Source: Dethiobacter sp.
GTDB lineage: Bacteria > Bacillota > Dethiobacteria > Dethiobacterales > Dethiobacteraceae
Length of the DNA: 40,642 bases
Assembly: GCA_020725465.1 (NCBI GenBank)
Contig: DYEY01000055.1
Span: 1-40,642 of the forward strand
Direction: 5' to 3'
Shown: one piece after another, positions 9,798-12,752 of the stretch
Layout: the number at the start of each line of letters is the position of its first letter
Position numbering within the stretch: the stretch's first letter is position 1
Position numbers and translations under genes: made by a program
Notes under the pieces: generated by a model
Database searches by the model: none
What the model was told of the DNA's origin: nothing
What the model saw: the letters and a program-made list of their open reading frames with translations, nothing else

Positions 9798-10490
9798 CTA
9801 CCTCCCGTGATAAACAGGGCTCCGCTTTTCAAAAAAAACCGCAATGCCCTCGCAGGCGTCTTTCGACTTGCCCGGGCAAAAGATAGCGTCGGCCCAATCG
9901 CCAGCTTCAGCACGATAGCCGCCACTTTCTCCGGGAACTCCTTTTTGCCAAACACATCATGGAAAATGCCAATCTCGGCGGCCTGCTGGGCATCTAGCAC
10001 AGGGTCCAGATAAAAGCAGTTCGGAAGCTTTGGCAAGGCCGACTATAGCCGGCAGAAACTCGGTAAAACCACCGTCCGAGCAAAGCGCGGCACTGGTATC
10101 GGACTGCCTGAAACGGGCGTTGTCCGCAGCGTAACGCAGGTCACAGGCCAGGGCCAAGCTGTAGTCGCCACCGCCAAGTGAACCGTTATCGGCAGCAATT
10201 ACGGGTTTTGGCAGAAGCTGGATGTCTGGATCAGGCAGTGGAACATATGGGTCAAATCGCCCAGCAGTTGCGACAGCTTTTCCCTGACTGCCGCCTGCAT
10301 GACCTTTAGGTCACCGCCGGATTCAAAGGACTTACTCGCCCCAGTTAGGACCAATGCCCTGATTTCGCGCAAAAAACACTTTTCAAACAACCAAAGCCAG
10401 CTCTTCGCCCATCTGTACGTTTAGCGAGTTCAACGACTCCGGTCGGTTCAGCGCAATAGTTGCCGCCACTTTGAACAGCACCGTCTTCAT
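9798..10490 (-). pseudogene. Broken enoyl-CoA hydratase/isomerase gene
   Basis: A complete crotonase-family gene can be followed across several frames. It begins with ATG at 10490 (MKTVLFKVAATIALNRPESL), hits a TGA, then resumes in other frames as IRALVLTGASKSFESGGDLK, LACDLRYAADNARFRQSDTS, EFLPAIVGLAKASELLLSG and DAQQAAEIGIFHDVFGKKEF, and ends with EGIAVFFEKRSPVYHG at a TAG at 9798. At least one in-frame stop and several frameshifts make function impossible. It lies upstream of the CBS-PAS activator and probably once belonged to the same acyl-CoA pathway. Several separate lesions argue for real decay rather than sequencing error. Confidence 0.85.
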
Positions 10491-10879
10491 TCATGAAATC
10501 TCCCTGTCTCAATATTTTGCTGTTTTTCTACTTAAGATCTTTGACAAAATGAGCCGGATAGTCAGGTTGAATATTATCCATAAGGGCAGTGACCCAGCAA
10601 AGGAGCATGACTGACATCCACCTCATGGGCAGGCAGAACGAAGGAATTTAGGGCACCGACCCTGTGAGATATGGGAGGTTCGCCGCCAAGAGACATGTGG
10701 ATACCAACGGCCACAATACTGTGAAATATGTGTAGTTTAGCTTAACGTACGCACATGCTTCCAGTTATTGATGTAAATGTCATTGTCACCCATGAGGGCT
10801 CATTTAACTAAAGTTGAAATACTGTGATTTCGTGAGGTATTGGAAGAAAATCAAAGATTATAGAGGGAGGTTAAACCGA
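10491..10879. other. Intergenic region before cooS
   Basis: No gene is recognised. It separates the divergent hydratase pseudogene from cooS. A weak sigma-A-like candidate on the plus strand is TTGAAA with a 17-base spacer to GTATTG near 10823, just upstream of the cooS ribosome site GGGAGG. Two short similar strings containing ATACTGTGA occur about 100 bases apart (near 10718 and 10830), which could be a regulator site but are not clearly symmetric. The minus strand holds a 47-codon open stretch of unknown origin. Confidence 0.35.
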
Positions 10880-12752
10880 ATGGATAAGCTCTCGCCAAAA
10901 AGCTGCGACGCCGCCACCCTGGCCATGCTGGAGCAGGCCGGCAAAGAGGGCCTGGAAACAGCCTGGGAGCGCCTGAAAAAGCAGGAACCGCAGTGCGGTT
11001 TCGGCCAGCTTGGCCTCTGTTGCCGCCACTGCAACATGGGCCCCTGCCGCATCGACCCCTTCGGAGAAGGGCCGGCCAGAGGCGTCTGTGGCGCGGATGC
11101 CGACACCATGGTGGCCCGGCACCTGCTGCGGGCTATTGCCGCCGGGGCCGCCGCCCACTCCGACCACGGCCGGGACGTGGTGGAAACCCTCTGCCACGTC
11201 GCCGAAGGCAAAGCCCGCGATTACGGCATTAAAGACCGGGCCAAGCTTCTGGCCCTGGCCGCGGAGCTGGGAATCGCCACCGATGGGCGGGAGGACCTGG
11301 ACGTAGCCAAAGAAGTGGCCGGGCGGGCGCTGGATGAATTCGGCATGCGCAAAGGCAGCCTGGACTTCATTAACCGCGTCCCTGCCAAGCGCCGGGAACT
11401 GTGGGACAGTCTTGGCATCACCCCCCCGCGGCATCGACCGGGAAGTGGTGGAAATCATGCACCGTACCACCATGGGCGTGGACAGCGACTACGTGAACCT
11501 GGTCCTGCAGGGACTGCGGGCCGCTCTTTCCGACGGCTGGGGCGGGTCCATGTGGGCCACCGAACTGTCGGACGTCCTTTTCGGCACGCCACAGCCCATC
11601 AGGGTTAAAAGTAACCTGGGCGTACTGAAAGAAGACGAGGTCAATATCATTGTCCACGGCCACGAGCCGGTTCTCTCCGAGATGATCGTACAGGCGGCCA
11701 ATGACCCGGAACTGCTGGCATTAGCCGGGAAAGTAGGCGCCAAAAGAATTAATATCAGCGGTATCTGCTGTACCGGCAACGAAATCCTGATGCGCCACGG
11801 CGTACCGGCGGCCGGCAACTTCCTGCAGCAGGAACCGGCCATCATCACCAGCGCCGTGGAGGCAATGGTAGTGGACGTGCAGTGCCTGATGCCCGCCCTG
11901 ACCGAACTGGCCAAGTGTTACCACACCCAGATCATTACCACCTCGCCCAAGGCCAGGATACCGGGCGCCCGCCATGTCGCTTTCAGCGAATCAGCAGCCC
12001 TGGCGTCAGCCAAAAACATCGTGAAAATCGCCATCGAAAACTACCCGAACCGCAACCGCGCCAAAGTCTTCATCCCGCGGGAAGAAACAGATTTCATGGC
12101 CGGCTTCTCGGTGGAAGCGATCGTGGGCGCCCTGGGCGGCAGCCTCTCCCCCCTGCTCGACGCCGTTAAAGCCGGCAGCATCCGGGGCATCGCAGGCGTG
12201 GTGGGCTGCAATAACCCCAAAACAAAACAGGACTTCAGCCATATCACCCTGACCGAAGAACTGATTAAGCGGGACATCCTGGTGGTCCAGACGGGCTGTG
12301 CCGCCATCGCCTGCGCCAAGGCCGGGCTCCTGGTACCGGAAGCGGCCGGCAAGGCCGGATCCGGGCTGCGCGCCGTTTGTGAGTCCCTGGGCATCCCGCC
12401 CGTTCTTCACATGGGCTCCTGCGTCGACATCAGCCGCATCCTGGTCACCGCCGCCGCCGCCGCCAATGCGCTGGGCGTGGATATCTCCGACCTTCCCCTG
12501 GCCGGCGCCGCCCCGGAGTGGATGTCGGAGAAGGCGGTCAGTATAGGTGCTTACGTGGTGGCTTCCGGCATTTTTACCGTCCTTGGCACCATACCCCCGG
12601 TCCTGGGCAGCGGCAACGTGGCAGCACTGCTTACCTCCGGCGCCGCCGGTGTGGTGGGCGCCGCCTTTGCCGTGGAACCGGACCCGCAGGCCGCGGCCCG
12701 GCTCATCGACGAACACCTTGCCGCCAAGCGCAAAGCCCTGGGTCTGTCCTAG
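10880..12752 (+). CDS. cooS: Anaerobic Ni-Fe carbon monoxide dehydrogenase catalytic subunit, frameshifted
   Basis: Oxidises CO to CO2 (reversibly) at a Ni-Fe-S C-cluster. The N-terminus has the cluster-binding cysteines CGFGQLGLCCRHCNMGPCRI and CGAD; downstream lie HGHEPVLSEM, GICCTGNEIL, VVGCNNPK, QTGCAAIACAK and MGSCVDISR, the His and Cys residues that hold the C-cluster. The reading frame changes at 11421-11427, a run of seven C where six would give a continuous protein of about 623 residues, the normal length. Everything before and after the run is intact, so a sequencing error or a very recent mutation is likely; if real, the gene makes only a truncated N-terminal piece. ATG at 10880 follows GGGAGG. 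No cooF or cooC gene is adjacent. Confidence 0.93.

Follow-up and report, generated by a model that had tools for sequence, protein, structure and literature searches.

A solitary cooS gene of Dethiobacter sp. split by a one-base frame change in a run of seven C

Organization of the split cooS gene

The gene cooS was located at positions 10880-12752 (+; 1873 bases) of the window (the whole stretch of DNA analysed, i.e., the entire contig C45 of 40,642 bases in a 78-contig, 2.91-Mb genome with 98.2% completeness), and its two halves lay in different frames on either side of a run of exactly seven C; a recent frameshift by one extra C, most likely through replication slippage, is somewhat favored as the cause. 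Its sequence identified the broken gene as that of a monofunctional Ni-CO dehydrogenase (CODH), with the following features:

10864-10870 (+): Shine-Dalgarno-like AGGGAGG upstream of cooS, read from the sequence
10880-11608 (+): 5' part of cooS, encoding the D/B-cluster domain in frame as far as the C run and, past it, 60 residues out of frame before a stop (ORF, TIGR01702 1-174, Cys/His positions)
11421-11427 (+): run of seven C, point of the frame change (sequence, frame HMM)
11427-12752 (+): 3' part of cooS in the other frame, undamaged through its stop and carrying every C-cluster ligand (ORF, TIGR01702 174-621)

The C run was bordered by A on one side and G on the other, and the two halves were one base apart, which confirmed the one-base shift claimed in the preliminary description. 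The ORF from ATG 10880 ended with the stop at 11608 and by arithmetic encoded 242 residues (about 182 native plus 60 out of frame); the downstream frame was open from at least 11334 through the stop ending at 12752, neither half had an internal stop, and the frame changed only once within the gene. A codon-statistics HMM, trained on the genome itself and given no homology input, placed the change at 11425. Monofunctional Ni-CODHs are encoded in a single uninterrupted reading frame, and cooS as assembled was not, its frame changing at 11421-11427. With six C, the gene would have 1873 - 1 bases, i.e., 624 codons including the stop, and the 623-residue CooS proposed earlier thus holds arithmetically. 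Two separate genes with reinitiation were considered and rejected: ATG 11334 of the second ORF precedes the C run, and a product started there would begin with out-of-frame residues; by eye, no Shine-Dalgarno-like sequence was seen before this ATG.

The N half matched NCBIfam TIGR01702 at profile positions 1-174 (174.1 bits) and the C half at 174-621 of 621 (534.5 bits), the halves meeting at one position; the family cut-off of 478 bits was passed by the C half alone. Pfam Prismane/CO dehydrogenase was likewise matched at 1-136 by the N half and at 133-513 by the C half. The N half contained Cys 39, 47, 48, 51, 56, and 70, which we take to be the D- and B-cluster Cys in CODH-II numbering, plus His 93, and its D/B-cluster Cys aligned with those of 6t7j and 1jqk. 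The C half contained the motifs HGH, GICC, VQC, VGC, TGC, GSC, and SEK, all aligned with solved CODHs and presumably comprising the C-cluster His and five Cys together with the catalytic His and Lys. The window CooS thus resembled monofunctional Ni-CODHs (CooS, TIGR01702) over both halves and in all ligands, the nearest structures being 6t7j and then 6vwy/6b6v (assumed to be from Desulfovibrio vulgaris). The earlier statements that all cluster ligands are present and that the downstream part is undamaged were both borne out: the ligands were spread over the two halves, and the C half was free of stops along its whole profile match.

A second cooS, found on contig C69, had an intact 659-residue frame and adjoined an acetyl-CoA synthase match; the CODH/ACS pair of this genome was therefore regarded as intact and the broken cooS as a solitary extra gene.

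Comparison with homologues

The homologues were gathered from the best 80 loci of a contig scan plus further loci from relatives of the window's genome. Among 59 relative genomes, none of which was from the same genus, 57 had a cooS match and 47 had one above the cut-off. The C half was matched by 121 loci (the two of the window's own genome being excluded), and 82 of these were at least 55% identical to it among the matches listed. A locus was counted as open if its frame continued for at least 160 codons before the Pro codon at the run and for at least 430 after it. By this definition, 79 of the 82 homologues among the matches listed were open in one frame across the Pro codon, and the remaining three comprised two loci cut by contig ends (L064 and L085) and one without the searched motif (L124). 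The comparison with relatives called for in the preliminary description therefore showed the break to be isolated. In the 81 homologues readable at this place among the matches listed, the C run over the Pro codon was two (31 loci), three (12 loci), four (29 loci), five (5 loci), or six (4 loci) bases long and in no case seven; the closest homologues among the matches listed were 75-79% identical and had one Pro ahead of Arg-Gly-Ile-Asp.

A break shared with relatives was considered, as two of them seemed interrupted at about this profile position, and it was rejected because neither supported a common shift site: (i) in G025:C97 the split coincided with a stretch of N in the assembled sequence and (ii) the locus in G045:C43 (L035) was a 5' cooS remnant of another CODH, about 190 codons long, and had no 3' half, shifted or otherwise.

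A tree of 34 C halves placed the window cooS among Bacillota sequences, where one of the 12 rows had a longer end branch than its own (0.30; range 0.007-0.32); with this length inside the Bacillota range, there was no clear sign of long decay. The nearest tree rows came from other families of the window's class or from further Bacillota, and the nearest match from the window's own family among the matches listed was 50% identical, and on these grounds the solitary cooS was taken to be patchily distributed. No conserved gene order was seen when four flanking proteins were searched in loci L005-L125, where the matches amounted to one regulator (L059) and one enoyl-CoA hydratase (L065).

Homopolymer runs and other shifted genes

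Exact C7 matches numbered 155 across the genome (76 forward and 79 reverse). In a sample of 1.44 Mb of the 2.91-Mb genome (the window and 80 further stretches), 80 C/G runs with a length of exactly seven were scored: 64 were gene-interior and in frame, two were interior shifts, three lay at gene junctions, three at strand changes, and eight at gene edges or in noncoding DNA. The frame was thus kept at 64 of 66 gene-interior C7/G7 runs, at all seven gene-interior C8/G8 runs, and at 380 A/T runs of 7-9 in the sample; most C/G runs of seven or eight being in frame, the assembly was therefore regarded as generally right at such runs.

The second interior C7/G7 shift was found in the Wadjet gene jetC (seven G; 14894-14900 of L212, near 54894 of G000:C21), whose halves matched a single PADLOC model of 1097 positions, at 1-821 and at 828-1091. 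Two further genes were split at runs: (i) an acyl-CoA dehydrogenase gene at A7 (1506-1512 of L144, G000:C37), with the N domain in its pieces followed by the middle and C domains, and (ii) an M14 carboxypeptidase/PA-domain peptidase gene at C9 (15441-15449 of L140, G000:C29), a tract long enough for a candidate switch tract. Two cases were less certain: (i) a frame change at A10 (11638-11647 of L220, G000:C44) probably involving a chelatase-like ATPase (identified from the letters and not by family search) and a von Willebrand-like part, which could be two genes, and (ii) a frame change at T8 in an IrrE-like gene, with a Pfam match in the first piece only. A T7 place at 14559 of L200, also flagged as a shift, was an ordinary gene end with a stop. 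The first open-frame filter overlooked jetC and picked up many normal gene-start overlaps, and the second rule scored the C9 peptidase and T8 IrrE-like shifts as 'junction'; the number of shifted genes is accordingly a minimum obtained by rough rules and partly by eye, and it is not a rate. Low-level homopolymer indels, real or artefactual, are general to this genome or assembly, and cooS is one instance of them.

Origin and consequence of the frame change

The frame changed exactly within the C7 run, and the homology continued up to it from either side without a gap, which supports a slip. An extra C would have been gained in the homopolymer by replication slippage and would be present in the organism and not just in its assembly. 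The seven-C gene would then give the 242-residue product, which has the B and D clusters, lacks the C cluster, and should therefore be inactive; because an intact CODH/ACS pair is kept elsewhere, loss of a solitary, patchily distributed CODH would probably be tolerated. The same data fit an error in C-run length made during sequencing or assembly, with cooS intact in the organism, and this less favored but quite possible explanation is a close second: the remainder of cooS was undamaged on both sides, and several other genes of the assembly were shifted at runs of at least seven bases, as residual homopolymer errors would give. In those passages of PMC3711429 that concern such genes, isolated one-base shifts with intact homologues are described as usually sequencing errors or recent mutations, and the GeneTack authors expect sequencing errors to account for most isolated frameshifted genes that have homologues. 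Against an error, the in-frame interior C7/G7 runs and A/T runs of the sample would imply a low error rate of about 1 in 100 runs, and the affected genes looked dispensable; jetC and the acyl-CoA dehydrogenase and M14/PA peptidase genes resembled cooS in this respect and lean, weakly and with about five cases in all, toward a real mutation. Placing a mutation ahead of an artefact, both of which had been named as causes in the preliminary description, is a judgement and not a measurement.

Two further explanations would leave the seven-C gene with a function, and the homologues, as far as sequence comparison goes, argue against a site conserved for recoding or switching. In a reversible slipped-strand switch, the tract would toggle cooS on and off in the population, as a one-base change in a mononucleotide run within the first third of the gene could do. 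Poly-C/G slipped-strand phase-variable genes are a known class, and cooS has in common with them a run inside the gene; its run is, however, shorter, is not conserved, and lies in a gene for a cytoplasmic metabolic enzyme. Phase-variable products are mostly surface-exposed according to the part of PMC3711429 that treats this class. The tract was neither kept in relatives (two to six C, never seven, in the 81 homologues readable among the matches listed) nor unusual for a genome with C7 this common, and 64 other interior runs of its kind were in frame; the slippery phase-variable tract suggested in the preliminary description was thus left unsupported, and such a switch is very unlikely. A literature search, in which the phrase 'phase-variable cooS' was not itself a query, returned no paper on such a gene. 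Even less probable is that the seven-C gene yields some full-length CooS through +1 shifting by ribosomes, or slippage by RNA polymerase, at the C run. The sequence of the run, ACC CCC CCG, includes the slippery CCC-C, as C runs do by chance wherever they occur; +1 shifting at the CCC codon would restore the exact family sequence, tRNA-Pro UGG, CGG, and GGG were all found in the genome, and the downstream RNA fold was mildly better than that of shuffled sequences (z -2.08, with 9 of 200 shuffles as good). In E. coli, CCC-C is among the most +1-prone sequences, shifting at rates that reach about 1% beside the start codon, according to the portion of PMC4519876 dealing with it. By contrast, the frame transition expected to be conserved at a programmed +1 site was absent from 79 of the 82 homologues among the matches listed (the other three being unreadable there), the zero-frame stop lay 60 codons on and not at the shift site, and by eye no Shine-Dalgarno-like stimulator was seen just upstream; any +1 leak would at best be around a per cent or less. 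It is likewise highly improbable that a real seven-C allele is maintained, with a leaky +1 shift on CCC-C or a reversible run keeping the solitary CODH very low or switchable beside the intact CODH/ACS.

Related cases and annotation

A frameshifted CODH gene is, as a kind of event, already known, and one such gene of Carboxydothermus hydrogenoformans is presumably cooS-III/acsA. Frameshifted CODH genes are reported, in the sections of PMC6085454 and PMC6557876 on these organisms, for C. hydrogenoformans (where the shift is described as laboratory-acquired) and for Calderihabitans maritimus. As far as those sections go, both resembled the present genome in having a frameshifted CODH catalytic-subunit gene in an organism with further CODH genes, the likeness lying in the frameshift as such, but the broken copy there was that of the Wood-Ljungdahl pathway (CODH/ACS), whereas here CODH/ACS was intact and the solitary cooS was broken. 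With a second, intact CO dehydrogenase present, the cooS break would be an ordinary one; if real, a recent slip in cooS would add to the cases, reported for other CO-metabolising Clostridia, in which a small slip costs an organism one CODH gene while another is kept. In annotation, cooS should be flagged as frameshifted and not entered as two proteins, and the organism should not be credited with CO oxidation by the window CooS. Just upstream of cooS, a decayed enoyl-CoA hydratase gene was observed at 9894-10225 (-), with a partial ECH_1 domain match followed by a frame change.
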